Assembly (NCBI GenBank): GCA_025201365.1
Contig: JAIXMF010000143.1
Location: 1 to 31,631, forward strand
Length of the DNA stretch: 31,631 nt
Source: Syncephalis plumigaleata
Taxonomy: Eukaryota > Zoopagomycota > Zoopagomycetes > Zoopagales > Piptocephalidaceae
Direction: 5' to 3'
Under the pieces are notes generated by a model that was not told the DNA's origin, searched no databases, and saw only the letters and a program-made list of their open reading frames with translations. Both the position numbers and the translations under genes were made by a program. Every line of letters begins with the position of its first letter. Position 1 is the first letter of the stretch. Positions 1 through 22,501 of the stretch are shown piece by piece.

Positions 1-1
1 A

Positions 2-2270
2 CGTGGTCGTTGTCCCTGCGACACTACACTTGAAGCTGCTCTCATTCGTCTCGCTCGCAAATTGAGTATCGCCCATTGTCCACAAATCCAAACGATCATT
101 GTGCTGCCAGTCTCCAGTCTAGACAGGAACAATCCGGACTCGCCCATCTCGCCGGATAATGATGACTCGTCCGATACTGATTTCATCCCGGATAGTTTCT
201 CGCGACAAGTGGCCGTGGCAACTCGTCAACTGGTGAATCAAAAAGAACCCGGTGTATCCAAGGATCCCCGAGTAATTGCCGTGGCACCAAGTCCCGTGGC
301 CGATCGTCTTATGGCCACTACCACCGGTCCGGATATGTCTAAGGCTGCCGGCCTTCGTTTCGGTCTTGATGTGGTGGATGGTAAGTAAATCGGACGGTAA
401 TAGTTGATACTTCAAACTAACATCGTATAACAATGCAATGCTACAGAGGGAACTCCTCCTAAGAAGCCATGGGAGGAGATGGATACCGTCGGTTGTCGTA
501 TATCCGGCTGGATCTTCTTTGCCATTGTAAGTTGTCTGTTTCACTAAAAGTACAATTGCTACTAGCTAATCAATACCATAGCTTATCCTTAGCATGTTCA
601 TAACAATGATATTTACGATTATACTGAGCTGTTGCTTTAATCTTGGTTTTACCATTTCATTCTGCGATTTGGTAATCGCATGGGTTGTCACGATTAGTAA
701 GTGCTCCAGCTCATCTATTCTATATGTGTATAGCTTTCGTATTTACGTATTTTATTCAATAATAGCGGTGGCCATATCATTCGTCATGCCTCGTTTCCTT
801 GATCCTGAAATGATGCTACGCCTTGTGGCCTTTCTACTCGATATCCTAGTGTTAATATCGGTTATTATTCGACGGTAAGTGGTCTCATTTGTGTTTAATT
901 CACGTTTACTTATCCCTGTAATTAGTGCATGTGTTCTTGCTCGTTTCCACGCTCAATGCATGTCATTCATACTCGGCAGTCTCGTGTTGACGGTGCTTAT
1001 TTCAGCGATAGGCGGATTTGCCTTTGGATTCCGCCTAGTGTTCCTGTATCGCATACCGGATCTTATCCTACCAAGCTGGACCGCTTCCTTTAGCTGGGCA
1101 TTGAAGGGCATTACCATCATGGCGATTAGCTTATTCACGGCATTTGGTAAGTTGATCAATCTCTCTTTTATTTGTTTTCATTTCTAATTTGAACAATAGG
1201 CGTCTGGTGTTTCCACATGGTGAGACATCTCGTTGTACGTCCTCAAGGCAAGCATCGACCGTACACTGAGGTTAGTATTTCGCATTAGCAATTCAACCGG
1301 CGTATTATATTAAACTACTATGCTATTCTAGGTCTCGCTTTTATGCGGTTTCGGTGCGTTAAGTGCTTTACTGGCACTATTGCACGATATCATTGCTGAT
1401 AGTCCAGAGTTGCGAGCGAAAGAATCACTCTCACTGCTCGCATGTATTCTTCTATACCTCGCTCATACACTACGCTGCTGGGCCCTGCTCTTGTTCTCTG
1501 TATGGCAACCGGGTACCGGTACTCATAGGCTACGAGGTCGACTACCACTGCCTAAGCCGCGTGCCTCCTACTGGCAACGCATCTCGAAGCGACAACTCCG
1601 TGAAATGGAGGATGAGGAACGGCAACGACAAATGCAGCAACGTGACCTGGAAGCGCAAACCGATCGAGATGGCAATCCCTCCGCACTAAATAACAGTAGA
1701 GCTGCACCAGCATCAGAACCAGCACCAGCTTCAAATCACAACAAAGCAAAGGGTCTAGGCATGGCGGCACTTGTTGCTATGCTGGCCCGTCCCTTCCGTC
1801 GTAATCCAAAGCCGGATGCATCCCGTCAAGCACCTGCATCGGATGCGCCGCGAACTGCTCCACTTACCATTTCAACTAGTCGCTCATCAATATCGTCGAC
1901 TCCAAGTGGTCCATCTTCACCGTTCACTCCTCCGCCCGCGCCATTGCCATTCCCGCCACGTAAACGACGCCCATCCTATTGGTCACCGCAAGAGTTGCAT
2001 CCACCTCCAATGGCACGTCCCATGCCTGTAGCTGAATCTAGCGCATCATCCAACTCTACACCAGAAGCTAGTGAAGAGACTAGTAACAGAAACTTGGATA
2101 ATCAGCGTTATCCCATTGAAGCAGCTTCAGCATCTGATGTCCATAATAACAACGGTAGCAATAACAACAGTGACCATCCTCCTCCTCCTCTTCCTACCAC
2201 TGCTGCTGCTACCACTGCTGCTGATGTACCTCCCGTTAATCAACCTGTCATGACCAGTCACAATTCGTAA
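2..2270 (+). CDS. Multi-pass membrane protein with Pro/Ser-rich cytoplasmic tail, 5' partial
   Basis: Seven exons can be joined in frame: 2-380, 447-526, 582-696, 766-874, 926-1146, 1200-1270 and 1332-2270, giving 637 residues from the window edge; the start codon lies outside. About 125 polar residues come first (an Asp/Ser-rich stretch DNDDSSDTDF is visible). From exon 2 to the start of exon 7 there are about seven hydrophobic segments, for example around IFFAILILSMFITM, LVAFLLDILVLISV, ITIMAISLFTAFG and LSLLACILLYLAH. The last ~250 residues form a charged, then Pro/Ser/Asn-rich tail ending in PPPPLP and Asn runs, with no further membrane segment. I do not recognise the family. A seven-helix topology would fit a receptor-like protein, but that is inference from hydrophobicity only. 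Introns are 53-91 nt with GTAAGT-type donors, except the last (GTTAGT). Confidence 0.7.
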
Positions 2271-2594
2271 AATGTATCATGCAAATCACACACACATAAA
2301 TATAAATATCACGTCATTATGTTGACATCATTGCAGCAATGTTTTTATTGTAATTAATCTATTCACATGAGTCAAATGCACAAAGCAGTGCATTGCCATC
2401 CAAGTTGAACCATTCAAACATGCTCAATAATATCATGTTGTATTCGTACTTTTACATTCAATTGATTTACACTTAATTTGAATTGTTAAACGACAGTTTA
2501 TTTCAATAAATCATACATTGCATTGTACGCGTATTCCAATCATGAAAGCACAAGCATTAATAAAACTCGTATAGCCTTGCTATCAAATAGATTG
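2271..2594. other. Convergent intergenic region with a diverged repeat fragment
   Basis: This AT-rich interval separates the stop codons of two converging genes. Its centre (about 2308-2432) is a diverged copy of part of the large inverted-repeat arm and is listed separately. The rest is AT-rich 3' flank with AATAAA-like strings on the plus strand (for example near 2504). No gene is seen. Confidence 0.6.
2308..2432 (+). repeat. Diverged dispersed copy of the inverted-repeat arm
   Basis: By eye this stretch lines up with 20227-20350 in the right arm, and so with the left arm in reverse. Shared blocks include ATTATGTTGACATC, TTGCAGCAAT, TTTTATTGT, CACAAAGCA, GAACCATTCAA and TGCTCAATAATA, in the same order and spacing with scattered substitutions and small indels. 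I estimate roughly three quarters identity. It is much more diverged than the two arms are from each other, so it is an older insertion of the same repeat family. Confidence 0.65.
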
Positions 2595-3806
2595 CTATCT
2601 CGTTTTATGGAAAAGCTGAGTAAATCTATTTCCAGATGGATTTGTTGGTACTGGTACTGGTACTGGTAGTGAGGTACTCTTCAATGCGGTCACAAGAGCA
2701 GTGCAATCCTGCACTTGGTCAGTATGGCAGCTACTCGAAGCAGCGAAATATGGGCAGCTGTAGCTTCTTCCAATTTCTTTCCGGTTGGATCCTGAGCAAT
2801 CGCGGCTCTAGCGCTTTCCTTTATATACTGTGCTATTGTCGCATAATCCTTAGGAGTAATATTATGGGGTTTTCCACAGTGAGTAGCTTAATATTCTCTG
2901 CAATATATTGGAGAAGTTCCTTATGATAACCAGTACATGTATAAGGATTTGGTGATCCAGGACTACTGGTATGGGGTATTGATATCCAACTGTTGTTGAG
3001 GTGGAAGTGGTTGTGACCCTGCCTTTGCATCAAAGCCAAACATCGTTGCCTTCAATTGACCTGTAGGCTGTTGCAGGACCGTGGTATCTACATTTATATG
3101 TTAGATAGGTATGGAATCATTTGATAACACTTACAGTCTAAAATCAAATCTATATGTCTAATACCAGCATTATAAAGGTAAATGGAACCTATGAAATAGT
3201 TAGTACATGTACTAAATAGCATAAATAAACAGCTTACCTTTAAGTAGTTGTGGCATGACTTGATTGAGAGTAACAAGGCGATCTGCATAGTTGCTTCTAC
3301 TACGGATGAATGACCATAATCGATCACCATTAACATTACGGTAGACAAAACAGTTTCCTGCTTGTTGAGATGGTCCTGCTGGAACTGGTATAGATTTCAC
3401 TGGATCCTTCACGTAATTACGATATTCCTCGTTGGCTCCTTTAAGCGTAGTTTGTGCGCTCACAAGTGCCTTTTATACCAGAGTAAGTAGAAGAAATATA
3501 AATGATGTCCATTATACTTACCTCAAATGCTGCTTTATCACGATTGCCAACTATGCACGTCATAAACCCAGGCTTTCTACCATGCATAACTTTAGCAAAA
3601 CTGAAAGTATCGGCTTCTCCATCGGTCCATTCCATAATTGATATGCCTTCCTTGGCAGCTACTTGCTCTATGAAATTACGAGCGTACAGCTTTCCATCGG
3701 GATTTCCACCGACTTTAACACCAACTGCTTGTGTTTGGGTGGCACATGATATAAGTGCCAATACCGCGGTTATCGTCAATGTCGTTTGATGAAGTAGTGA
3801 GCGCAT
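2595..3806 (-). CDS. Small secreted protein, last exon with three apparent 1-base frame breaks
   Basis: Minus-strand exons are 3806-3522, 3469-3238, 3188-3135 and 3087-2595. The product begins with a clear signal peptide (charged start, hydrophobic core ITAVLALISCATQTQA, likely cleavage near residue 27), then a region with KVGGNPDGKLYARNF, and in exon 2 NCFVYRNVNGDRLWSF. In the last exon the coherent reading changes frame three times: around plus positions 2973-2976, 2866-2869 and 2752-2754. Each lies in a run of 3-4 G on the plus strand. The net change (-1, +1, +1) gives exactly 355 codons including the stop. The C-terminal part has Cys pairs and a VPVPVPTNP linker. No domain is recognised. 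It is either a gene hit by homopolymer base-calling errors or a pseudogene decayed at its 3' end. Exons 1-3 are well supported. Confidence 0.65.
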
Positions 3807-4239: not shown

Positions 4240-4676
4240 TCAAACCAATCCGGTATTGACTAGCATGTCTATATCCAATTGACCATTATATCGATAATAG
4301 TATACCGTCATCATTATGATATGGATTGGCTTACATTCAGCTAGACAATACTATCATGTTCATTACATATGTGTCTTGTGAGATTTCCATGGTAAAGCAG
4401 CAATTAGCTTGATAATAACTATCATAAAGTAAATAAGATATTGTATACGCTTTAGTTTTCGTACATTTACATGTTAACGGATTACACTTGATAGCAAGCT
4501 TAGTGCCATTTGGCTATCCATAGAACATTGATTGATATCACTTTACTGTTTGTTAATTGTATATGGACTGTTAATCATTGAATAAAACTGAAACGCAATA
4601 AATTCATTTAATATTAATACGAGCCAATAACACAAGTATACTCGTCGTGTCATTTGGTCGGGAAAGCAAGGTGCAA

Positions 4677-6500
4677 TTACGACTTGCATTGCGGATTCAA
4701 CGAGTATTCCGGTAGTGGATAGCCAGATTCGTTAAATGCACGAAGACCAGGATCATTGTATAGTTTGGGATGCTCCTTGATATACTTGGCTGTAGGTCTA
4801 TCCTTGGGATCGCATGTGACATCAATCTTATCCGGATGTTGATAGATACGAATGTAGTCGACGTGCATGGTGGAGGGAATCGGTGCATTCTTTTCATCGA
4901 CCTCGCCGAAACCAGTTGACATGGCCAAATTCATAATGATATACTATGAAATACGTTAATATTACCGCATATTCTAATGCATAACGGCTACTAATCAATT
5001 GACTTACCATCGGTTCTTCGGATATAAGTCGTTGGCCCACGCCGTTCTTTGAGTTGGGAGCAACTGCACGTGCATCAATGGTGGCTTTCTTATTTTCATC
5101 AATGTACCACCGGACGTAGCCCTTGGCGCCTGGCTCATACTGGAAGGCATAGTTCTGATAAGCCTTTCCTTCAAAGTATTCCGGTCCAACCTTCGTCTTT
5201 GCCGACACCATTTGCTGTAGTTCCGAGCCACTATACGTGTTCTTATAGGTGGATGTCGCATTATTAATGACAAAGTACTGGGGATTCACGACGTAGTCAG
5301 CATCAAATGGCGCGAATTGATGTGATTGCGACACGGTGGCACCACCATTATTACCACCATCTTTGGCGGCACCTTCTAGTAAATCTATTTCGGGTGCACC
5401 ACGTCCAATACCGGGTGATGGTGTATCCTGATCCGAGCATAAACATTTATTGAGTCGTTGACCTGCCAACTTCGAGTAACCAGCATTGATGCCCTGACCC
5501 TTCTGTACACCCAGATCACAGCTATCATAGCTATATGGCCAACTGGAAATGGATCATATTAGTACACAGTAACAGTTGTAAGAAGACAACTTACAGTCCA
5601 TCGGTAGATCCACCATATGCACTAGATAGATGGTATAATTAGAACAAAAATAACGTTTACAGCTAGAGTGACGACTACTTACGCTCGTGCCAAATTACCC
5701 ATGGTCCAGATAGCAGGCCAGAATGCAGGAATGGTAGGACTACCCGGTAATGATACACGCGCTATTATTTCATTTATGTTAGTAACGTTATACATGTGTA
5801 TACGTATATATATATATATAGCATAGATTGCTCACCTTCTAGATAGCCACCACGGAAGCAGAACTTATTCCATGTTTGTATCATTGCACTAGCATAACGC
5901 TGCTGTCCAATCTGTTTCTTTTCAATGGTGATGCGTAGTGTGCCATCCTTCGTGGTCGCTTGATCAGGATGATAGTATTCCATATCGCCTGTTTGCCAGT
6001 TCCACAAATCAAGTGCCTCCCTATTTCACGTTTGAAGCAATTGTTCAACCATCATATGATGTGCGTTAATAAACGGTATTACTCTTGTTTCCCCCCTAAA
6101 AGTCCATCGATATTAATTACCAGATTTTATCTTGTCCCGGACGGAAGTTGCGACCATCCTGGTTGAATTCATCCGAGAACACGAGTTGATACTCTGTATT
6201 GTCCTCCATTCGCTTTCTACGTGCTTCTTGTGGTGTATCCGGATCAACCCATTTATTACCAGGATTAGATGGATTGCTACCACCACTTACGCCTGTACCA
6301 TCCGAGTTGAGCTTATCCTTCCATATGGTATTTTTGAGAATGGGGAAAGCAATAGCTAGAAACGCTACACCCAAGGCGAGCAATATACCGGCAATGATTA
6401 TCAACCAGCGCGGCAAGCTACCCGAACCCTTCCCGGCTTTTGAAATGTTTCTGGGTGTGGCCATACCCACCGCCAGGTCATCTCTACTATGATAATGCAT
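4677..6500 (-). CDS. Beta-glucan synthesis-associated protein, KRE6/SKN1 family (GH16), copy A
   Basis: Exons on the minus strand: 6500-6121, 6020-5836, 5761-5683, 5621-5595, 5542-5008, 4943-4677 (490 aa). It is a type II membrane protein: a cytoplasmic head of about 31 residues, one membrane helix (about 32-54), a Gly/Ser/Asn-rich stalk, then a lumenal GH16-like domain. Family hallmarks visible are FSDEFN, PAIWTMGNLARA, STDGLWPYSYD, CSDQDTPSPGIGRGAPE and the active-site ExDxxE as E275-I-D277-L-L-E280. KRE6/SKN1 proteins act in the ER, Golgi or plasma membrane in beta-1,6-glucan assembly of the fungal wall; the exact reaction is unsettled. Copy A has two introns that B and C lack, isolating a 27-nt exon (5621-5595). 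It is divergent from copy B across a 1.4-kb spacer. Symbol withheld because there are three paralogues. Confidence 0.93.
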
Positions 6501-7729
6501 ATTATATAGCTAGTGGTGCAGCGTATGTGTGTAGTGCTTAGTGCTTCTTAGTGTTTGTACCTGAAAGATGAGCGAGTATTACGTGATAGCAGGGTAATAG
6601 AAAGAAATGCCAGCCTGCTTGTATACGGTAAACTAGAAATCCAAACAGTAATAACTGTAGAACTCGTTGATATAGTCGAGCAGGAAAGAAAAAGAGAAAG
6701 ATGCTAAGGAAGAGGTGTAAGAAGTTCGAGAAGAACGAGCTATACTACACTAATAAGGAAGAAAAGGGGACAGGTAAAATGTGTACTTGTCTACAAAAAC
6801 AGAAACAAGACACTAATAATAATAACAGAGCTGATTGTTTATCTCATTGATCATTCATTATCAAGGCAGTCCTAAATGCTATTAATAATAATGCAGACGA
6901 GTGGATCTCCACTCTATTAGTAGTTGCATTGTTTTGTTAAATGGATCAATTTAAATAAATACTGGAGTAGTATCCAATGCAAACCATCTATTTATTTATT
7001 TACTAGGACTGTTATCTTAGAAGCTTGGCCTTTATTCAATCTGAGCACAATTGATTAAAAGTATTGAGAGAAATCATGTGGATTACATGAATATTCCTAA
7101 GTAGATTGACTGTTAATACTATTCATACTTGTATAAGGACACACCATGTAAGTAACGGCAACTGCAATGAAATACTTAATTCCCTATTAAATATGCACTA
7201 GCCAGCATATGTACTTTCTAATTAAACCCGATCACAACAGCTAGCATCTAATCCATAATGTAGTGATCGACAAGTGTCTACGATAACAAATCCATTTGAG
7301 TAACAATACGTACATATACACATATACATGAATGCTAATCTACATGATGTACTATTTTTAAACAGATTCGAGATTTCTATTAAATAATGGGTCCTTCTAT
7401 AAACGGACATAATTATAGCTAAGATACTGTCATCCATTGGCAGTAGCGAATAAGTCATCACTTCTTAATGTAGTCAATCTATTGACGATTGTTCGCGAAA
7501 TCACTCATTGGCATTGTGTTCATGGAGAGAGAGGAGAGAAAGGCCAGAAAAGGCCAACTCTGGTTGTTTTCTCCTATAACAAAATAGAAACAGAATCGCT
7601 TCCTTCATTATTGTTATCTCACTCTCTTTTTCGTAGTTTACGCGGACCAGCCTATTCGGTCTCCGCTTGCAGACGATGAAGATTCATTGGTCTATTTACA
7701 GGCTTTTTTCTTTACAAAAAAGTACATAA

Positions 7730-7819
7730 TGTCCTTTCTTATTCCCTCCCTCTCTTTCACGCTTACACTTGTCCTATTTGAGCTACATATTACTCTACCT
7801 TTGTTTCTCTCTCTATAAC
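7730..7819 (+). promoter_or_regulatory. CT-rich stretch upstream of GH16 gene B
   Basis: A pyrimidine-rich run (TTCCCTCCCTCTCTTTC, later TTTCTCTCTCTAT) lies about 90-175 bases before the start codon. CT-rich tracts of this kind commonly mark the core promoter or transcription start of expressed fungal genes. The position of the true start is not visible. Confidence 0.3.
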
Positions 7820-7870
7820 CGCGTCAGGTCTTGTTCTATTCAACTAATACACAACTACATGATTATTGTC

Positions 7871-7900
7871 AATAATAATAATAATAATAATAATAATAAT
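7871..7900 (+). repeat. (AAT)10 microsatellite just before the start codon of GH16 gene B
   Basis: Ten uninterrupted AAT units end 5 bases before the ATG at 7906. The repeat is therefore probably within the 5' untranslated region, where copy-number change could affect leader length. Confidence 0.9.
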
Positions 7901-7905
7901 TAGAC

Positions 7906-8307
7906 ATGGGAGCTGCAGGTAATGGACGCCGTATTTGCGGCATGCCTCGCTGGATATTCTTCACTATTTGCGCTATTCTTGCCTTGGGTGTGGCATTCGC
8001 GGCCATTGGCGTTCCCATTCTAAAGTCAACTGTTTGGAAGAGTAATTCAAATAAAAATGGCAGTGACAGCGAAGACTCTGACAGCAGCGATGGTAGTGGC
8101 AATAATAGCAGTGGCGGTAGTAAGAAGCCAGATGTTAGCAAATGGATCGATTCGGATACACCAAAGGAACTACGCACTAAGAAGATGGAGGATGGAAGTG
8201 AATACAAGTTGGTGTTCTCTGATGAATTTAATAAAGATGGGCGTGATTTCAATCCAGGCAAAGATAAGATATGGTAAGTTGATACTAATATTAATGGTAG
8301 TAGTAGC

Positions 8308-8362
<55 letters not shown>

Positions 8363-9618
8363 ATGAACGTTAACACAACTAATATCATTTAGGGAAGGTG
8401 TCAATCTACACTATTGGCAAACGGGTGATTACGAGCACTATATACCGGAACAAGCCAGCACAAAAGATGGTAAACTACGCATCACTATTGAGCGAAAGCG
8501 AGTTGGAAATCAGGACTTTGCTAGTGCCATGTTACAAACGTGGAATAACTTTTGCTTCCGTGGCGGATATCTAGAAGGTAAACTATATATATATATATGT
8601 ATGTATAACATTGCTAATGGGAATGTATTTCACATAGCTCGTATCTCCTTACCTGGAGCAGCTAATGTACCAGCTTTATGGCCAGCCGTATGGACCATGG
8701 GTAATCTAGGGCGTGCTGGCTATGGTGCATCCACCGATGGACTATGGCCCTACAGCTATGACACATGCGATGCTGGTGTTTCGCGTAATCAAAGCTTAAC
8801 CACTGGATTGTCGTGGTTGCCTGGCCAGCGACTCAACAAGTGCTTGTGTTCCGATCAAGACACGCCATCACCTGGTATTGGACGTAGCGCACCTGAGCTC
8901 GATCTACTAGAAGGTGCCGGCGGTGATGGTGGCAACAATGGCGGTGGTACCGTGTCGCAATCCCATCAATTTGGCCCATTCGACGCGGAATACACGGTGA
9001 AGGAACAGTATGTGGTCGTGTACAACAGCACTAGCACCTATAAGAACACCTATAAAGGTGCACACCTTCAACAAGCGGTCTCCGTCAAGACAAAAATTCC
9101 ACCGCAGTATTATGAAGGTCGTGACTATATGGACTATGCGTTTGACTATGAGCCAGGTGCCAAGGGAACTGCTCGCTGGTATGTTGGCGGTCAAAAGAAG
9201 TGGTCGCTCGATGCACGCGCCGTTGCACCAAATGCCGCGGTTAACGCAGGACAACGCATTATCTCTGAAGAACCAATGGTAAGTAACTCGATGAAGTGAT
9301 ATCATCATTAGTCATTGTGCAGTTCCTAATCATTTATCTGTTACTCTCTAGTACATCATCATGAATGTTGGTATGTCAAATGGATTTGGTGCAGTTGACC
9401 TGGAGAATGCCAAATTCCCGGCTACAATGTACGTCGACTACATTCGTATCTATCAACATCCGGATAGAATCGATATTGGTTGTGATCCCAAGGATAGGCC
9501 AACAGCCAAGTACATCAAGGATCATCCCAAGTTATACAATGATCCAGCATTACGGGAATTCAAAGATTCGGGCTATCCGCTACCGGAATACTCGTTGAAT
9601 CCACAATGCAAGGCTTAA
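7906..9618 (+). CDS. Beta-glucan synthesis-associated protein, KRE6/SKN1 family (GH16), copy B
   Basis: Exons 7906-8273, 8393-8577, 8638-9278, 9352-9618 (486 aa). Short cytoplasmic N-terminus (about 14 residues), one membrane helix (about 15-39, WIFFTICAILALGVAF), a Ser/Asp/Gly-rich stalk, then the lumenal GH16-like domain with FSDEFN, PAVWTMGNLGRAGYG, TDGLWPYSYDTCD and ExDxxE at E271, D273 and E276. The C-terminal exon carries VDYIRIYQHPD and CDPKDRPTAKYIK, shared with A and C. Intron 1 is largely a GTA repeat. The 3' part of exon 1, intron 1 and the start of exon 2 are almost identical to copy C, much closer than the rest of the two genes. Expected role: beta-1,6-glucan assembly in the secretory pathway. 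Convergent with copy C (305-bp gap). Confidence 0.93.
8297..8362 (+). repeat. (GTA)22 in intron 1 of GH16 gene B
   Basis: About 22 GTA units with one GCA interruption near the start fill more than half of the 119-nt intron. The same repeat in intron 1 of copy C has about 12 units, in the same orientation relative to the gene. Confidence 0.9.
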
Positions 9619-9923
9619 CAAATATTAGTATAGATCAGTCATAGCTCTTTATAGTTTTGCTAATAGCAGCAGTTAGTATATCATATATATATATTGGTTG
9701 CATAATAAACTTGAACATACTTCCATTACAAAATTCTAAACGTTTATTAATAAAAGTCTATTAGTCTTCCATGAATACCACAATACTATCAATACAAACT
9801 GCTCTTTAACAATTAAACAGATATTATCAATAAATTTGTGATAATGCATATACAGCTTAGTCCGGTTTATTAATATGAAAGACAGGAGACAGCAATAGTG
9901 ATGATGCCGACAACGATGATACT
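9619..9923. other. Convergent 3' region between GH16 genes B and C
   Basis: This 305-bp AT-rich spacer lies between two stop codons. It contains AATAAA at 9704-9709 for gene B, and TTTATT at 9743-9748 and 9866-9871, which read AATAAA on the minus strand for gene C. No gene is seen. Confidence 0.6.
9704..9709 (+). terminator. Candidate poly(A) signal of GH16 gene B
   Basis: AATAAA lies 86 bases after the stop codon of gene B. The hexamer is common by chance in this AT-rich spacer, so the assignment is tentative. Confidence 0.35.
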
Positions 9924-11218
9924 TTACGCCGGACATTTACCGTCTAGTGAGTAGCTAGGCAATGGATAGCCTGCATCTTTAAAGTTATGAAGTGATGGAT
10001 CATTGTATAGCTTGGGATGATCCTTGATATACTTGGCTGTAGGTCTATCCTTGGGATCACAACCAAGATCGATCTTGTCCGGATGTTGATAGATACGAAC
10101 GTAGTCGACGTACATTGTAGCCGGGAATTTAGCGCGTGAAAAATCTATCTTGCCAAATGTATCGGACATGGCAACATTTAAAATCAAATACTAAATAAAT
10201 AGATAACAAGTGAGCATGATGAGGATGATTAGTTTCATTTCTACCTATCTATCCAGTAGAGAGTGCTTACCATAGGTTCTTCCGAGATAACACGTTGACC
10301 GATCTTGGCCTGAGCATTAGGACCGACGGCTTTGGCATCAAACATCCACTTCTTGTCATCGCCTACCCACCAAGTGACACGGCCCTGAGGTCCAGGTGTA
10401 TAGTCGAATGCATAGGTTTGATAGGCACGTCCCTCGTAGTATTGTGGATCAATCTTTGTCTTAACCGAGATAACTTGTTGCAATTTGCCACCATCATACG
10501 AGTTCTTATAAGTAGACGATGTGTTGAAGATGTTGACGTGTCGCGATTGTGCCTTGTAATTGATGTCGAATGGTGCGAATTGATGTGATTGCGATATAGT
10601 GCCACCGCCCTTGTTACCCTCATCGCCATTAACACCAAAGTCACCACCGGCACCTTCTAATAAATCGAGTTCAGCTGCACTACGTCCAATACCGGGTGAT
10701 GGCGTGTCTTGATCCGAGCATAGACATTTATTGAGTCGCTGGCCAGGTAACCATGATACTACACCGGCATTACTCTGGTTGGCAGTTACACCGGTATCGC
10801 ATGTGTCATAGCTGTAAGGCCATAGTCCATCGGTGGATGCACCATAGCCAGCACGCCCTAGATTACCCATGGTCCATACGGCTGGCCATAAAGCTGGTAC
10901 GGTTGGATCACCTGGCAATGATACACTGGCTATATATATGTAATAAAATATTGGTTAACCACTGCTAATTGATAGATAGATATATAGATATACATCCACT
11001 TACCTTCCATATATCCACCGCGGAAGCAAAAGTTATTCCATGTTTGTAACATGGCACTTACATAATCCTGATCACCTACTCGTCTCTTCTCCACTCTAAT
11101 ACGTAATTTACCATCCTTTGTACTAGCTTGATCCGGTATATAACGTTCATGGTCTTCAGTTTGCCAATAGTGTAGATTGACACCTTCCCTAAATGATATT
11201 AGTTGTGTTAACGTTCAT

Positions 11219-11256
<38 letters not shown>

Positions 11257-11696
11257 TTAATATTAGTATCAACTTACCATATCTTATCTTTGCCCGGATT
11301 GAAATCACGCCCATCTTTATTAAATTCATCAGAGAACACCAACTTGTATTCACTTCCATCCTCCATCTTCTTAGTGCGTAGTTCCTTTGGTGTATCCGAA
11401 TCGATCCATTTGCTTAATGGTTTATTGGAACTACCACTATTTCCAGACCCGCTAACATACCCATCTGCATCCTCGCTTGAACCTATACCGTTCTTCCATA
11501 CTGTAAACTTGAGGATAGGGAAAACGATAGCCACACATGCCACAATAACCAGTAAAGTAGCACCAATAGTGATAACTAATTTGCGTGGCAAACCAAATAG
11601 TCGTTTGCCACGAACTTGATGAGCAGGTGCCAGGTCATCATGACTAGGCATAGGCTGCAAGTTACGAGCCCGTAGTGCTCGTACCGACTCACTCAT
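9924..11696 (-). CDS. Beta-glucan synthesis-associated protein, KRE6/SKN1 family (GH16), copy C
   Basis: Minus-strand exons 11696-11278, 11188-11004, 10929-10271, 10190-9924 (509 aa). The cytoplasmic head is longer (about 38 residues), followed by a membrane helix (about 39-62, LVITIGATLLVIVACVAIVF), a short stalk and the lumenal GH16-like domain. ExDxxE is at E288, D290 and E293 (AAELDLLEGAGG), followed by a copy-specific insert rich in Gly, Asn and Asp (DFGVNGDEGNKGGG). TDGLWPYSYDTCD and CSDQDTPSPGIGR are conserved. Exon 2 is 185 nt in all three copies, and the intron positions match B exactly. Part of exon 1 through the start of exon 2 is nearly identical to B. Like A and B it should act at the secretory membranes in cell-wall glucan assembly. 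Confidence 0.93.
11219..11256 (-). repeat. (GTA)12 in intron 1 of GH16 gene C
   Basis: On the minus strand, about 12 GTA units occupy the same place in intron 1 as the 22 units in copy B. The flanking intron sequence is the same in both genes. Confidence 0.9.
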
Positions 11697-15798: not shown

Positions 15799-16852
15799 TG
15801 TAGAATAGCAATAAACTGAAAGGCAATATGAAAGGAAGAAGCGAATGAACGAACGACACAGTGGTCACGTATGCTTGGTGAAATCTCGGTCAGAGAAAGA
15901 ATAAAAAGCAAGTTAGTTCAAACCAGCTTGAACTAATCATCAAATGTGGATTATAATTGTTTCTGTAATGTGGTAGCATCATTTTATATCATTAGATATA
16001 GAAAACAAACTTTATTATAATGAGTAGTATGAATAAAACTAATTAAGCTTGCATGGAGAAATAAATGAAATCGTAAATAAGTTAAAAGCATCCCGGCAAT
16101 TATGTGGTCACTGTGAAGTCGGGCATCCTTGTATACTATTATTATTGTTGTTGTTGAATATTAGCTGATAGACATTTAGAATGGGAATTAGTACATATTG
16201 TCTGTATATTATCTCTTGTATTAGCAATGAATAGAAATGTCAACTTACCGAATAGAATGGAAATAGTATGTAGTCAATATCATTGACATTTGAATCAGTA
16301 TTTGTACATGATGATTCATTCGTTGTTCGTAGATTGCTTCTAAAACAGAATGGATTACATATTTATTCAATAAATAGCTAGATGATCGAATGAATCAGCT
16401 GGTATTTGATGTTTACGCAATAGAATAATGGATTAATAGACCAGATGAACTGGTATCAATGTACTATTGACCTGTATATTTATGCATACTTGTATTGTTT
16501 GTATTGCTTTCATTGAAATGTGCTAGTTTACGTACAGTTTTATTAATCAAGAGTATCGGACATGTAGTGTATATCATATTGGTATTAGTGCAAGAGTAGA
16601 AGCAGAGTGCAGTAGACTACCACAAACAAAATAAACAAAATAGAAATGGACAAAGAATAAGCCACTACAGATAAGGATAGAGCAGTTGGCTGTATTCAAT
16701 AAGCAGTTAAGACCGTGCATTTATTAAATAAATTATGATGATAATGCTTACGGTTAATGGCATAGGAGTAGCAACAAGTGAACAAATAGAATACACGATA
16801 AACAATGTAATAAACAAGCAGTAACTAGTAGAATGACTGAATTGTCACGAAT
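15799..16852. other. AT-rich intergenic DNA, RAD3 upstream flank
   Basis: About 1 kb lies between the RAD3 start and the left inverted-repeat arm. It is AT-rich, with a short TTG/TTA-rich stretch near 16140-16160. From about 16590 onward the plus strand becomes purine-rich, anticipating the strand bias of the arm. No coding frame or RNA gene is recognised. Confidence 0.5.
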
Positions 16853-17242
16853 GAGCAAGGAATGAGCAAGGAAGGGTGCATGAACACGTATGTTAGTTTA
16901 TTTGAAGAAGCAGTGTATGCTTGTATGTGGTGAATAGAGTATGTAGATGGCAGTAAACAAATAAAAATACAAATAAAAGCATGACGTAATGGTGGCATAC
17001 AAACAGATGACGGAAAAGAGCGGTAAAGTAAAAGGTACATATTACAACGAGAGCAGTAAACGCTTAAACATTGATAAATAAGCAGGACAGTGATAGAAAA
17101 CAAAAGACTAGAACGAACAATAAACAAGGCTTATTGGTATAGTAATAATAACGACAAGTGAGCATGTAGATAGTTTAGTGGAAGAGAAAGAGATAAATAA
17201 AAGTCATAGAGATAGTATGACAGAATAGCTGCTATTGGGAAT

Positions 17243-17540
17243 GTGTATGTTAAAGTGAAAGAGGAAGTAAGTGGAATGTGAATGACACGAAGAAGACGCG
17301 TATTACTGAGAAAGTAAAAGAACTAGCTAGCATATAGTTAAGAGGAAGTAGGTGTGTGTTGTTTACTGACAAGTGGAATGTAGTTGGCACAAAGAAGGCG
17401 CTTATTGTTTAGTAATAAGAGGGATGAGATTAGCACGAATAAGACAGTATGTGAAAGAAGTAAATGACAAGTGGAATGTAGTCAATACTAAGAATATGTG
17501 TATTGTTTAATGACAAAGGGAATGTAGTTAAAAGAAAGAA
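17243..17540 (+). repeat. Degenerate ~49-bp tandem array in the left arm
   Basis: The motif TGACAAGTGGAATGTAGT followed by an AAGAAG-rich stretch and TATTGTTTA recurs with about 49-bp spacing. Clear units start near 17369, 17463 and 17511, and a weaker one lies near 17269. The mirrored array is at about 20515-20812 in the right arm. Confidence 0.6.
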
Positions 17541-18000
17541 GACAACATTGGTAAAGAAGGAAAAGTAGCAACAATGAAATGAATACTTGGAAATGGATTA
17601 GTACATCATTAACGTCAATAGACACTAATAACAAACATGTCAATTAGTATTAGTGCTTACTGATTGTTAGTAATAAATGAATAAACTAAATATATACTTA
17701 TTATTGAGCATCATTGAATGGTTCTAATTGAATAACAGTGCGGTGCTTTGTGTAGTTAACTTATGTTTATAGATTATCACAATAAAGATATTGCTGCAAC
17801 GATGTCAACATAATGGCACGATGTGTTAGTTGGCGTGTAGATTAGCAATACCAGTATATCGTCTTATAGTCCTACGAACTACAAGCATTCACATATAAAA
17901 ATGAAACTATACAAGCAGCTAGTAAGCTAGAACATCTGCCCTTTACTGCTTTTATTTCGAAGCATATTGGCTACAACTTCTCTTACCTGCTTTAGTTTTA

Positions 18001-18189
18001 TTGAAAGATCCAAATACTATCAAGGTCAAGTTCGAAGAGAGTAAGAGGCGTGCTTGTAATACTAGGGCGGAGCGCAGCTTTGCGTCAGCCACTGGTGTTA
18101 CTTTAGAGCACAGCCAGAACGATAATGAAGAATGGGAGGGACATCTAATGCTTTATTTTTACTTAGTATGGGGGAGGGGAAACAACTAG
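18001..18189 (+). pseudogene. Possible fossil coding fragment in the inverted-repeat arm
   Basis: An open frame of 62 codons without an ATG overlaps a GC-richer island in otherwise AT-rich repeat DNA (GGGCGGAGCGCAGC at about 18065-18078). The protein reads plausibly (FEESKRRACNTRAERSFAS, then EHSQNDNEEWEG). An identical frame is present in the other arm at 20047-19859. I recognise no family. It may be a remnant of a mobile-element gene or a chance frame, and its duplication only reflects the arm duplication. Confidence 0.2.
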
Positions 18190-18207
18190 TTGTAGGCACC
18201 AATAATG

Positions 18208-18405
18208 TAGCAATAGTTTTAAATGGATATAATTGTTTTGAAACACGCTAATTACAAACATGTAAATATATTGGCATCAAGTGGAGAATGTAACACTATG
18301 TCACAGCCTCATACTTTCCCAACCAGCTATCGCTTCTTATATTTTCATTAACTTTACAAACATACAACTTGCGTTGACGTCTTGCTTTATACTCCTTCGT
18401 CAACT
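18208..18405. other. Inverted-repeat spacer, upstream flank of the enclosed gene
   Basis: Starts with TAGCAATAGTTTTAAATGG, nearly the same as 27824-27842 beside another dispersed repeat. The rest is AT-rich and presumably carries the promoter of the gene at 18406. Confidence 0.45.
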
Positions 18406-19512
18406 ATGACTATAGTACGCGACTCTATCGTCTCTAACGACAATATTGAAGACTATTCGAGACTATTGGATTCCGACGACGAACATGAGTCTTCCATTCC
18501 ATTAGCGGTACCGTTACGTGAGGGCGAGATACGTCCACCGCATAGTGCTCCTATATTCTCGTCAACGGCTGCGATAACCGAGAACCATCAATTGACTACA
18601 CCGCCACCACCTAAACCACCACGAGGTCGAAGTCCAGTCAATGGTCCAAGTAGCGGTACTTCAACGGTTACGGCGCCTTTAACACCCCCTTCACTACCGC
18701 CACGACCTCAACGTATTGCATTACCGGGTGGCTCGTTGTCTTCACCAGCACCGCTTTCCGCGCCATTATCTGGTAGTACGGTACCGGGTGGCTTAGCGCT
18801 GGACGATGTTCGATTGATTATTCGTCTTATGCAAGCGGAAGGAAACATACAGCAAGCGCGTGCACTAGCACAAACCCTACCGGTAGACCCCGAGGATCCA
18901 AATCGTTCTATTGATCCGGAAGTAGACATCTTTCTCGGCTATCGACCGGTACCACGCGATTCTACCGGCATTGACACGTACGATTTCTACGAGGAATTAG
19001 GCACGGGATTTTACTTTTATTCAACTCGAGAAATCGCTTGGGAGATTGGTAGAAATACGGATTGGACGAATTTCGAGGTGGTACGTGCCTACATTAAACC
19101 GCCCTATCGTCGCGGTTATGAGCAGCGCGAGAAAATACGTGTTTATCCAGGACCACCGCATGGTGAAGGTAGTAGCAGTAGTAGTGCGGTGAAACGATCG
19201 AATAGTTTCTCGCTTAGTCGAATTATGGGTGCACTACGTGATGAGCCAAAGTATCACATCTCTTCCATTCTACAAAGCTCATTCAATCAGGAGGTGCTCA
19301 TTGCCGATGCACCCGTGGGACATGGCATGCAAATTAAACTAGGATCAAGTCTAGGAGCGCAGATTGTCCGTCTTAACGACGAGTACAATTTGAATGAAAG
19401 CGATGGACCAGAAGGTGGTTGGCCCGTTGCCGTTTACGAGCATACACGTACTCATGGACGTCTACGTGCACTAGTACAGCGTGTGTCGAGTAATTCTGAT
19501 AAGACCACTTAG
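18406..19512 (+). CDS. Unknown intronless protein enclosed by the large inverted repeat
   Basis: The first ATG of the open frame is at 18406, giving 368 aa without introns, unlike most neighbours. The N-terminal ~140 residues are low-complexity and Pro/Ser/Thr-rich, with acidic RLLDSDDEHESS and proline motifs PPPPKPPRGR and PSLPPRPQR that look like SH3-binding PxxP sites. From about residue 140 it looks globular: LALDDVRLIIRLMQAEGNIQQA (helical), then IFLGYRPVPRDSTGIDTYDFY and WEIGRNTDWTNFEVVRAYI, a Ser-rich loop, and a final part with YHISSILQSSFNQEVLIADAP. No transposase, recombinase or known enzyme motif is visible and I do not recognise the family. Normal composition and high complexity in the C-terminal half argue that it is a real host-type gene, not a remnant. 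Confidence 0.8.
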   Translation: MTIVRDSIVSNDNIEDYSRLLDSDDEHESSIPLAVPLREGEIRPPHSAPIFSSTAAITENHQLTTPPPPKPPRGRSPVNGPSSGTSTVTAPLTPPSLPPRPQRIALPGGSLSSPAPLSAPLSGSTVPGGLALDDVRLIIRLMQAEGNIQQARALAQTLPVDPEDPNRSIDPEVDIFLGYRPVPRDSTGIDTYDFYEELGTGFYFYSTREIAWEIGRNTDWTNFEVVRAYIKPPYRRGYEQREKIRVYPGPPHGEGSSSSSAVKRSNSFSLSRIMGALRDEPKYHISSILQSSFNQEVLIADAPVGHGMQIKLGSSLGAQIVRLNDEYNLNESDGPEGGWPVAVYEHTRTHGRLRALVQRVSSNSDKTT

Positions 19513-19840
19513 TCTAGCTCCAGCAATGTATAGCTTATTCTTGCTGATTTCTTTTTTACATATATATTCAGCTCAAAATATGTACTACGATATTTGTAGG
19601 TGAAATTTACAAATTAGACCAGCTACTCTGGTATATTTGTCATATCGTTCGATTGAACATCTTACAAATGAACATTTTATTCAAGTTTTGATATTCACTG
19701 CACTGAAATGTAAATTCATGTTTGGTTTTTGGCAATAAAATAATACAAGGTGCCTCGTTCTAATTAACATAACTTGTAATTTCGTTCTCTATAAGTCATT
19801 AGTTTGCGATTTGCCTTCACGTCTTATAGTTTAACTAGCC
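19513..19840. other. Inverted-repeat spacer, 3' flank of the enclosed gene
   Basis: AT-rich DNA between the stop codon and the right arm, with AATAAAATAATA at about 19734. A 16-bp string at 19769-19784 (CATAACTTGTAATTTC) occurs inverted at about 28030-28045. No gene is seen. Confidence 0.5.
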
Positions 19841-21195
19841 CATTATTGGTGCCTACAGCTAGTTGTTTCCCCTCCCCCATACTAAGTAAAAATAAAGCAT
19901 TAGATGTCCCTCCCATTCTTCATTATCGTTCTGGCTGTGCTCTAAAGTAACACCAGTGGCTGACGCAAAGCTGCGCTCCGCCCTAGTATTACAAGCACGC
20001 CTCTTACTCTCTTCGAACTTGACCTTGATAGTATTTGGATCTTTCAATAAAACTAAAGCAGGTAAGAGAAGTTGTAGCCAATATGCTTCGAAATAAAAGC
20101 AGTAAAGGGCAGATGTTCTAGCTTACTAGCTGCTTGTATAGTTTCATTTTTATATGTGAATGCTTGTAGTTCGTAGGACTATAAGACGATATACTGGTAT
20201 TGCTAATCTACACGCCAACTAACACATCGTGCCATTATGTTGACATCGTTGCAGCAATATCTTTATTGTGATAATCTATAAACATAAGTTAACTACACAA
20301 AGCACCGCACTGTTATTCAATTAGAACCATTCAATGATGCTCAATAATAAGTATATATTTAGTTTATTCATTTATTACTAACAATCAGTAAGCACTAATA
20401 CTAATTGACATGTTTGTTATTAGTGTCTATTGACGTTAATGATGTACTAATCCATTTCCAAGTATTCATTTCATTGTTGCTACTTTTCCTTCTTTACCAA
20501 TGTTGTCTTCTTTCTTTTAACTACATTCCCTTTGTCATTAAACAATACACATATTCTTAGTATTGACTACATTCCACTTGTCATTTACTTCTTTCACATA
20601 CTGTCTTATTCGTGCTAATCTCATCCCTCTTATTACTAAACAATAAGCGCCTTCTTTGTGCCAACTACATTCCACTTGTCAGTAAACAACACACACCTAC
20701 TTCCTCTTAACTATATGCTAGCTAGTTCTTTTACTTTCTCAGTAATACGCGTCTTCTTCGTGTCATTCACATTCCACTTACTTCCTCTTTCACTTTAACA
20801 TACACATTCCCAATAGCAGCTATTCTGTCATACTATCTCTATGACTTTTATTTATCTCTTTCTCTTCCACTAAACTATCTACATGCTCACTTGTCGTTAT
20901 TATTACTATACCAATAAGCCTTGTTTATTGTTCGTTCTAGTCTTTTGTTTTCTATCACTGTCCTGCTTATTTATCAATGTTTAAGCGTTTACTGCTCTCG
21001 TTGTAATATGTACCTTTTACTTTACCGCTCTTTTCCGTCATCTGTTTGTATGCCACCATTACGTCATGCTTTTATTTGTATTTTTATTTGTTTACTGCCA
21101 TCTACATACTCTATTCACCACATACAAGCATACACTGCTTCTTCAAATAAACTAACATACGTGTTCATGCACCCTTCCTTGCTCATTCCTTGCTC
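19841..21195 (-). repeat. Large inverted repeat, right arm (1355 bp)
   Basis: Reverse complement of the left arm over the same length, beginning with CATTATTGGTGCC and ending with CCTTGCTCATTCCTTGCTC. Here the plus strand is strongly pyrimidine-rich. Beyond 21195 the sequence differs from the left flank. Together with the 1633-bp spacer, the two arms make a 4343-bp unit. Confidence 0.95.
20515..20812 (-). repeat. Degenerate ~49-bp tandem array in the right arm
   Basis: Units on the plus strand begin with ACTACATTCCACTTGTCA and recur near 20518, 20566, 20615 (weak), 20664 and 20765. It is the mirror of the left-arm array. Confidence 0.6.
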
Positions 21196-22501
21196 GTTTT
21201 CTCGTTATCACGTAACTATTACCGTAACGCTCATATAAGGTGGATATGCACACTCTCGTCTATTGCTTTTTATTCTTTTATTCGTCCTCTGACAACACAT
21301 ACACCACTACAACTCATGCTTTTCCTCTTACTCCACCTTCGTTTATAGTCATATACAGGCTACACTTAGCTGCAAGCGTATACTACTTGTCTTTGTGTTG
21401 TTCTCGATCGGTCGTCTTATTCCCGTCTAGTCTGCTGCTTTGCCACTGACTACTTGTCGAATATATTGATTGTATGCCGCATACTCGTATTTTGTATCGC
21501 TACTTGTCGGTAGCCTCACTCCAATCTGTATACTCTGTCATAAGCACACTTTGCTCTTCACGCTGTGTAGTAATTGGTTCTTTATTTGTTGTCGATCAAC
21601 GTGGCATATACTCCCACTAGGTCTTTCATACTGGTCTATCCTCTATTCAGTTCACTCTTTCTCACTCTCTTGTCTACTTGCTTGCGACACTCCCTTGCCC
21701 TCACTCGTGTATTTCTATTATTTCATGCCGTGTCCTTTATTCACGACGTTTGCTTGCCGCGTTGTACCACTTTATTCGCGTTGACTTGCTGCTCTTTGCT
21801 CGTAGTATGTAGGGACACGTACGCATACATAACACTCGCGCTATGCATTAGGTGCCACACTTGCTTGTCAGCATACAACGTCTCCACTTGCTGCTTTGCA
21901 CTACTTACTCGTGATTTATAAATATATGCAAGTACGCGGTACTCGTGTTAATCACTAGCCAGCGCTGTTTGTTCCTCCAATTGCGACATGTATACGTAAC
22001 AAACACTACACCTTCTACTCGTGTGTTGTGAAAGTACGCGTACATACATAATATCCGCGCTAACTACTACCTATCGCGTCGCTTAGCATTTTGTATTTGT
22101 AGTGGCACTGTCTGACATTGTATTGCATATTGTATATGTGTCGAGGAAGTCCTATATGATGGCTATATCTTTATTTGCATAGTATATATCAATAGCTAAT
22201 ATGGCACTAATAGAGGGTAATAACGGCATTAGCACATCCATTCATTGCTCATTAGCATGGTATTACAGGTCTTTCCAACCGATTAACACAGTAAGTCATT
22301 ACCATTTGTTCTTATTAATAGATAATCTTGCATCTTTGTTAACACCATTATCGCATTGCTATTATTATTGAGTAGTTGCCATGGCTCTAGCAGTTGAGGA
22401 TTATTGCTTCCACGTCTAAATACGTAAATTTTATTATCATAACTATTATTTATTAGTAAACCGCAAAAGGCTAGCTGCGCAAATTAGTTGGAAAAGAACT
22501 G
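21196..22501. other. Non-coding, pyrimidine-rich then AT-rich intergenic DNA
   Basis: Up to about 21900 the plus strand stays pyrimidine-rich, with scattered CTACTTGTC and CACTTGCTTGTC strings that recall the ~49-bp array in the right arm, suggesting that the repeat decays outward. Open frames here encode only Leu/Ser/Cys/Tyr-rich low-complexity text. Two related strings, ACGTACGCATACATAACACTCGCGCT near 21816 and a similar one near 22034, form a diverged direct repeat. From 22100 it is plain AT-rich DNA. Confidence 0.5.

Follow-up and report, generated by a model that had tools for sequence, protein, structure and literature searches.

An inverted repeat encloses a single gene

The window, that is, the whole stretch of 31,631 nucleotides analysed here and the entire contig C50 of the Syncephalis plumigaleata assembly, contains two long, near-identical inverted arms that enclose single-copy DNA (referred to as locus 1). 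A repeat search of the window places the left arm at 16850-18207 (plus strand) and the right arm at 19841-21198 (minus strand), each 1358 bp long and separated by 1633 nt, and the unit of arms and spacer measures 4.35 kb. Global alignment of the arms shows two mismatches (arm positions 3 and 1341) and no gaps over 1358 bp, a match that we judge to be far beyond chance. The earlier note on this DNA had described a near-perfect repeat of 1355 bp, which is confirmed with one mismatch over that length (99.93% in blastn), although the arms extend to 1358 bp.

As that note had also stated, the spacer (18208-19840, plus strand) carries a single intronless gene: its sole intact ORF occupies a single open frame of 368 aa on the plus strand (18406-19512, from the ATG at 18406 to the end of the stop codon) and has a proline-rich N-terminal part. 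The coding score of this frame, 0.206, is the highest of the six, and 200 shuffles reached at most 0.177, a value that one reverse frame of the same region also attains. The score thus lends modest support to the ORF being coding. Using the 367 residues that follow the initial methionine, we found one copy of the gene on C50 and one on contig C46 and none elsewhere in the genome's contigs, and the same query matched no family in Pfam. NCBIfam likewise returned no family, leaving the protein with no recognised domain in either collection, while a comparison with PDB sequences gave one row (E 0.96), no relatives appeared among 76 pattern matches in viral contigs, and an AlphaFold model computed without an alignment reached a mean pLDDT of 34.4. 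The two copies differ at seven codons, four replacing and three silent, which are too few for a claim of strong constraint.

The arms belong to a high-copy dispersed family with at least 57 matches among those listed, based on scoring 40 of 340 first-look candidates, and contain imperfect internal repeats. Outward from the left arm extends a dispersed repeat (16145-16849, plus strand), and a different, high-copy dispersed repeat extends outward from the right arm (21199-22351, minus strand). At the inner end of the right arm, reaching into it from the spacer, lies a fragment matching a CDC20/Fizzy-type WD40 gene (19767-19874, minus strand; the outer coordinate is approximate, being taken from the alignment and the Pfam start), with its inner ~34 bp recurring in mirror image at about 18174-18207. 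C382 carries a fuller copy of this gene, colinear with C46 at ~228 kb. In the open-licence literature we found no description of locus 1 or of the arm repeat family, an absence that is weakly supported.

The spacer is inverted between two contigs with colinear flanks

The window matches C46:110579-142272 with a divergence of 1.19-1.20% in the flanks outside dispersed repeats. Judged by this alignment, C50 looks like the other haplotype of that segment, and the two would be alleles of one individual. The flanks are colinear, but the 4.35-kb unit as a whole aligns on the minus strand only. The spacer corresponds to C46:128885-130517 on the minus strand with 14 substitutions and no gaps, and its gene accordingly lies on the minus strand at C46, with orientation read at the level of the assembly. 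Two further inverted pairs in the window (8137-8926/10641-11414, 82%; 22502-22684/27840-28024, 96%) serve as an internal control; both fall inside the colinear alignment of C50 and C46, and neither is flipped. The two spacer orientations that the earlier note had predicted from recombination between the arms are therefore both present in the assembly.

Divergence between C50 and C46 is 0.86% in the spacer and 3.62% in the arms, and reaches 5.67% and 4.50% in the dispersed repeats extending outward from the left and right arm, respectively. We compared the four arms of locus 1 with one another, scoring as AABB those sites at which both arms of one haplotype differ in the same way from both arms of the other, and as ABAB those that are position-specific. 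The comparison yielded 46 AABB substitutions and six AABB gap columns against one ABAB substitution, located at the outermost edge, and four private singletons, which indicates that the arms homogenise within each haplotype. The surviving differences between left and right arm lie at most 32 bp from the outer edge and at most 18 bp from the inner edge. Where the note had left the choice between a recent origin and ongoing homogenisation, the second contig supports homogenisation, again at assembly level.

Reversed spacers at two further loci

Six haplotype pairs were compared, three of which have a clean inverted repeat on both sides, and in all three the spacer is reversed. This count may be inflated, since alternative contigs probably favour sites where the haplotypes differ in structure. 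At locus 2 (C277/C351) the flanks align on the plus strand (276 bp on the left, 3.65 kb on the right) and the spacer on the minus strand. The four arms show 72 AABB sites along their length and 31 ABAB sites, all confined to the outer ~200 bp, which indicates that the arms are older than the haplotypes and that their outer edge escaped conversion. The C277 arms share an identical stretch of 2683 bp and are 96.9% alike as a whole; those of C351 are 98.3% alike, the left one carrying 20 gap columns (in 17 places) not seen in the other three arms.

Locus 3 (C228/C46:324-333k) likewise has flanks on the plus strand and a spacer on the minus strand, with 53 AABB and no ABAB sites among its arms. 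The C228 arms are 100% identical over 932 bp, but identity between the two C46 arms is just 90.6%, which leaves C228 as the one haplotype on which homogenisation is visible. Spacer divergence at this locus is 7.65%, far above that of the flanks beside the arms (2.4% and 4.8%; further out the identity is 98%), which argues that ectopic exchange also acts here. The spacers of loci 2 and 3 consist of DNA different from that of locus 1, and that of locus 3 is repetitive. In other words, at assembly level all three loci present both spacer orientations between colinear flanks, and arms on the same chromosome are closer to each other than to the same arm on the other chromosome at loci 1 and 2 and, on C228, at locus 3.

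One of the remaining pairs is complex and two are without a clean inverted pair on both sides. C175 and C46:368-376k carry a prolyl-oligopeptidase-like fragment in opposite orientations, but as both the left arm and the arm-type repeat are missing from the compared part of C175, the pair was rejected as a clean flip and scored as complex. C71 and C351:638k align colinearly along 3.9 kb that contain no inverted pair, while C382 and C46:228k are colinear over 5.5 kb; the 335-bp inverted pair of C382 (98.5%) has a left arm without a colinear partner in the compared piece of C46.

Recombination between inverted repeat copies as the probable mechanism

We propose, with a probability of roughly 0.8, that homologous recombination between inverted copies of a dispersed repeat explains the locus, accounting for both conversion of the arms and inversion of the spacer. 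The starting point would be a host gene flanked by two inverted copies of the repeat. These copies, residing on one chromosome, would recombine homologously with two possible outcomes: without a crossover, one arm would be copied onto the other by gene conversion, keeping the arms almost identical, while a crossover would invert the spacer. The flip is presumably mostly neutral, because, whichever way it points, the gene meets the same ~1.36-kb arm at both ends. The high-copy family that the earlier note had held against the structure does exist, but the random spacers named alongside it do not apply, as the family does not carry the gene in the spacer as random cargo; nor does a high-copy arm family make the structure trivial, given that pairing, homogenisation and flip are specific to the locus.

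The same two products would arise if replication template switching, rather than double-strand-break repair, had copied the arm and flipped the spacer. Sequence alone cannot separate the two routes, and we regard template switching as a possible, if less probable, source. As described in Saccharomyces cerevisiae, it concerns short inverted repeats (PMC8604942), in contrast to homogenised stretches of 1.3 to about 3 kb here. The process is probably homologous recombination, of the Rad51/Rad52 type, and not template switching. It is unlikely that the pattern is produced by the assembly, with arms collapsed to one consensus and spacer orientation picked randomly by the assembler. Short-read collapse could leave differences close to the arm edges, as at locus 1, and several small alternative contigs are present, as in an unpurged assembly; however, contig coordinates up to 2.84 Mb and the absence of N in the loci examined suggest long reads, and the unit measures only 4.35 kb. 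Collapse of arms is also not the rule, as seen from the one-arm-private gap columns of C351 and the 9.4% difference between the C46 arms at locus 3, and position-specific sites persist over about 200 bp at locus 2. Moreover, collapse alone would not produce a 3.6% arm difference between haplotypes.

The imperfect internal repeats, the related inverted pairs at C228, C46:325k, C351 and C277 and the match of the inner arm end to a CDC20-type gene fragment would all suit a non-autonomous foldback- or Galileo-type transposon, with very long, internally repetitive terminal repeats homogenised and a gene captured. We nevertheless consider this very unlikely: other genome copies of the family continue straight past both outer arm boundaries, which shows that no element ends with the arms, and the gene in the spacer occurs at locus 1 only, which together speak against the non-autonomous cargo element that the note had offered alongside an inverted segmental duplication and an invertible cassette. 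Its remark that neither a transposase nor a target-site duplication is visible holds, with no transposase match in a Pfam scan of 15 ORFs (from the window, L010, L012, L013 and L047) and no duplication among words of 5 to 9 bases at the window junctions, apart from one 5-mer common to both that directly adjoins the left arm and lies about 10 bp off the right arm. Inspection by eye of C228 and C46:325k revealed no target duplication in their flanks, and the copies there and at L017 showed no clean terminus in common; a sharp-looking end near arm position 760 on the right side of C228 is explained by a short deletion compared with the window, beyond which the homology resumes. Least probable of all, and in our view hardly credible, is a regulated invertible cassette whose orientation, set by a site-specific recombinase or a mating-type-like switch, would control the gene. 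The complete gene between the arms and the presence of both orientations would suit it, yet in either orientation the gene keeps the same 5' and 3' spacer sequence and arms that are nearly identical, its product matches no recombinase or mating-type domain in Pfam or NCBIfam, and at loci 2 and 3 it is other DNA that is flipped. A centromere of the homogenised-inverted-repeat type was also considered and rejected, since C46 bears two clean inverted-repeat loci, one of them with a gene-containing core. Centromeres of that type number one per chromosome, and their core is expected to be devoid of genes.

Recombination between inverted repeat copies may reach further. It is conceivable, though doubtful, that the dispersed family has seeded many gene-sized palindromes genome-wide, flipping so often that the individual's two haplotypes are inverted at most of them and forming genome-wide invertible gene cassettes. 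If true, such cassettes could alter the context of neighbouring genes or locally block meiotic exchange.

Comparison with known systems

By analogy, locus 1 is best read as a flip-flop of the kind already known from yeasts and mammals. Candida tropicalis centromeres, as described, resemble it in having kilobase inverted repeats, termed homogenised, around a ~3-kb core, but occur once per centromere, at all seven, with a CENP-A-rich core (PMC7292649), whereas C46 alone has two clean cases and a partial one, with a gene in the core. The Drosophila Foldback and Galileo elements share the long, internally repetitive inverted repeats (PMC3573991), but here no transposon ends or target duplications were found.

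Closer are the palindromes of the mammalian Y chromosome, in which, as proposed here, gene conversion keeps the arms alike (>99.9%) and a crossover between arms causes inversion; at human P6, three inversions against 56 conversions were reported in 83 phased chromosomes, inversion being far rarer (PMC3723533). A recurrent inversion on the eutherian X is also described (Caceres et al., as cited in PMC9731477). Unlike the present loci, the mammalian palindromes lie on sex chromosomes. Those of the X and Y are also much larger than locus 1.

In the flip/flop of Saccharomyces chromosome XIV the repeats are, as here, homogenised within strains and species and both orientations occur (Salzberg et al., 2022, PMC9731477). 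The same account reports some diploid isolates to be heterozygous and proposes gene conversion with occasional crossover. It concerns one locus, whose repeats, 4.2 kb long and themselves gene-bearing, enclose 15 genes over 24 kb. To the authors' knowledge this is the one large inversion in Saccharomyces with both orientations at substantial frequency. Here, by contrast, the spacer of locus 1 is 1.6 kb with one gene, and the arms belong to a dispersed repeat family with no recognised gene except the fragment at the inner end. Short-read assemblies would be blind to flips of this kind, a limit that Salzberg et al. point out for the yeast region (PMC9731477). Long reads and PCR allow a direct test of how conversion and crossover are balanced and of how orientation affects a gene enclosed on its own. 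Set beside the single Saccharomyces locus, one fungal genome here presents reversed spacers at three inverted-repeat loci of one dispersed family, together with homogenisation of the arms.

The inverted repeat and the gene it encloses

A repeat search of the window places the two arms of the inverted repeat (locus 1) at 16850-18207 and 19841-21198, each 1358 bp long and separated by 1633 bp. The earlier note had located the arms correctly at 1355 bp, and each extends three bases further at its outer side. Its single arm difference is likewise confirmed, as alignment gives two mismatches in 1358 bp (arm positions 3 and 1341), one of which falls inside the 1355 bp. The spacer carries a single open reading frame of 368 amino acids (18406-19512), with 198 bp of spacer 5' and 328 bp 3' of it. 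No relatives of the protein were found in Pfam, NCBIfam, PDB sequences or viral contigs, and its predicted structure model was unusable.

The arm belongs to a dispersed repeat, with at least 57 matches listed from the 40 of 340 first-look candidates that were scored. Elsewhere in the genome the repeat does not stop at the arm's outer boundary: on contig C228 it runs on into the sequence that adjoins the left arm on its left, and on contig C46 at 104 kb into that flanking the right arm on its right. The points at which two overlapping repeat copies cease to match thus define the arm ends, and the suggestion of a mobile cargo element finds no support. Similarity to part of a CDC20/Fizzy-type gene spans the right arm's inner end and the next 74 bp of spacer. 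Contig C382, in a region colinear with C46 at about 228 kb, has a fuller copy of that gene.

The unit is reversed on the counterpart contig

The genome comprises 32.6 Mb in 383 contigs, of which the window is one whole contig (C50, 31,631 bp). This size, together with a match to the SKN1/KRE6 family, suggests a fungal source. Its counterpart is C46:110579-142272, with 1-3400 of the window aligning to C46:110579-113982 and 3419-31631 to C46:114001-142272. When the gene, the spacer and the flanks were used as genome queries, only C50 and C46 gave near-full-length matches; the remaining matches were partial and lay inside repeats or, for bases 2306-3400, in a diverged family. Window 2433-3400, probably a gene family, has 19 longer relatives genome-wide at 66-83% identity. 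With dispersed repeats excluded, the flanks of the two contigs differ by 1.19-1.20%. Both flanks keep their direction on C46, while the unit 16853-21198 aligns whole to C46 only when reversed. The gene lies on the plus strand in C50 and on the minus strand in C46, and over the 1633 bp of spacer the two contigs show 14 substitutions without any gap. At the level of the assembly, this bears out the invertible cassette that had been among the options considered. We read C50 and C46, and other such small/large contig pairs, as two haplotypes; paralogous loci would be a less likely reading.

Arms are alike within each contig

Had the arms evolved separately since the haplotype split, sites at which both arms of C50 agree and both arms of C46 agree would be nearly absent, yet the four-way alignment contains 46 substitutions and 6 gap columns of this class, together with a single site, arm position 3 at the outer edge, that distinguishes left from right on both haplotypes, and four sites private to one arm. 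Homogenisation, which the earlier note had raised as an alternative to recent origin, is thus right as far as the assembly shows. Between haplotypes the arms diverge by 3.62%, three times the flanks, and the dispersed repeats directly outside them by 5.67% and 4.50%. Positions 906-943 of the C46 arms hold a dense cluster of differences, several letters of which are common to a dispersed copy on contig C201. Variants may enter one arm from dispersed copies and then spread by conversion between the arms.

Reversed spacers at two further loci

Five further small/large contig pairs were compared (C382 with C46:228k, C175 with C46:368k, C277 with C351, C228 with C46:325k and C71 with C351:638k). 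At locus 2 (C351:978.4-992.5k versus C277), the arms are about 3.5 and 3.3 kb long, with within-contig identities of 98.3% and 96.9%; the flanks are colinear across the 276 bp compared to the left and the 3.65 kb to the right, and the spacer is reversed, its two near-full-length genome copies lying on opposite strands alongside partial repeat matches. Across 3271 ungapped columns of the arm alignment, 72 sites are shared by the arms within each haplotype, 31 are left/right-specific, 46 are private to the left arm of C277 (positions 76-354) and 21 are others. All 31 left/right-specific sites lie in the outer 200 bp of the arm, which indicates that the arm pair predates the haplotypes and that its outer edge escapes conversion. 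Gaps absent from the other three arms occupy 20 columns, at 17 places, in the left arm of C351. The flipped spacer contains a short minus-strand ORF (4436-4810 of the locus 2 sequence L047) that is gag-like by eye and has no Pfam match.

At locus 3 (C228 versus C46:324.4-333.3k) the flanks are again colinear and the spacer reversed. The arms are identical across 932 bp on C228 and merely 90.6% identical over 0.97 kb on C46, so that homogenisation is visible on C228 alone. The arm alignment has 53 sites shared within haplotypes, no left/right-specific site, 58 private to one C46 arm, two three-state sites and 50 columns with gaps. The locus is less clean because its spacer diverges by 7.65% between haplotypes and is itself repetitive.

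Between C175 and C46:371k a gene fragment is reversed within a more complex structure: a prolyl-oligopeptidase-like fragment is opposite in C175:1-7000 and C46:368000-376000, and the former has lost one arm and arm-type repeat relative to the latter. C71/C351 and C382/C46 are colinear in the compared parts, with no inverted pair common to both contigs. Hence, of six pairs including that of the window, the three that have an inverted repeat in each haplotype are all flipped, one is complex and two are uninformative, a flipped fraction that is probably biased upward, since the pairs were encountered via repeat matches rather than sampled at random and assemblers tend to keep separate contigs where haplotype structure differs. 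A further inverted pair, on contig C318 (1495951-1499500 and 1510009-1513555), is 99.3% identical over at least 3.55 kb; 10.5 kb separates these two stretches, and the arms may extend further.

Orientation is unchanged between haplotypes in the two other inverted pairs listed for the window. One consists of the SKN1/KRE6 copies, 82% alike over about 0.8 kb; the other is 185 bp long at 96%. Both fall short of the window's flipped pair in length or identity, although the C46 arms of locus 3 illustrate that the arms of a flipped pair are not always near-identical at present. In window 4894-11696 three similar gene copies alternate in orientation; a Pfam scan identified one as SKN1/KRE6, and the others are assigned by similarity. 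Within copies otherwise about 82% alike, a 196-bp inverted stretch (8137-8332/11219-11414) is 98% identical, which suggests local conversion.

Probable recombination between inverted copies

Non-allelic homologous recombination between inverted copies would give both arm homogenisation and spacer inversion. The main artefact to consider is assembly collapse, which could make the arms of locus 1 appear homogeneous and would fit the survival of their differences solely near the arm edges; at locus 2, however, some 200 bp retain position-specific sites, and the gap columns of the C351 left arm would be lost under collapse. Both arm identity and spacer orientation are read from the assembled sequence. 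Template switching may likewise produce homogenised arms and an inverted spacer, and PMC8604942 describes the same products at short repeats. Inversion would leave some 1.5 kb upstream of the 368-amino-acid gene as before, because the gene keeps its own spacer sequence on both sides and the arms are alike, and little effect on its expression is expected.

The kind of arrangement is already known, and this one gains interest from its recurrence at several loci of a single genome. Salzberg et al. (PMC9731477) propose the same recombination scheme for the Saccharomyces flip/flop region and record diploids heterozygous for orientation, and for human palindrome P6 inversion is described as less frequent than conversion (PMC3723533).
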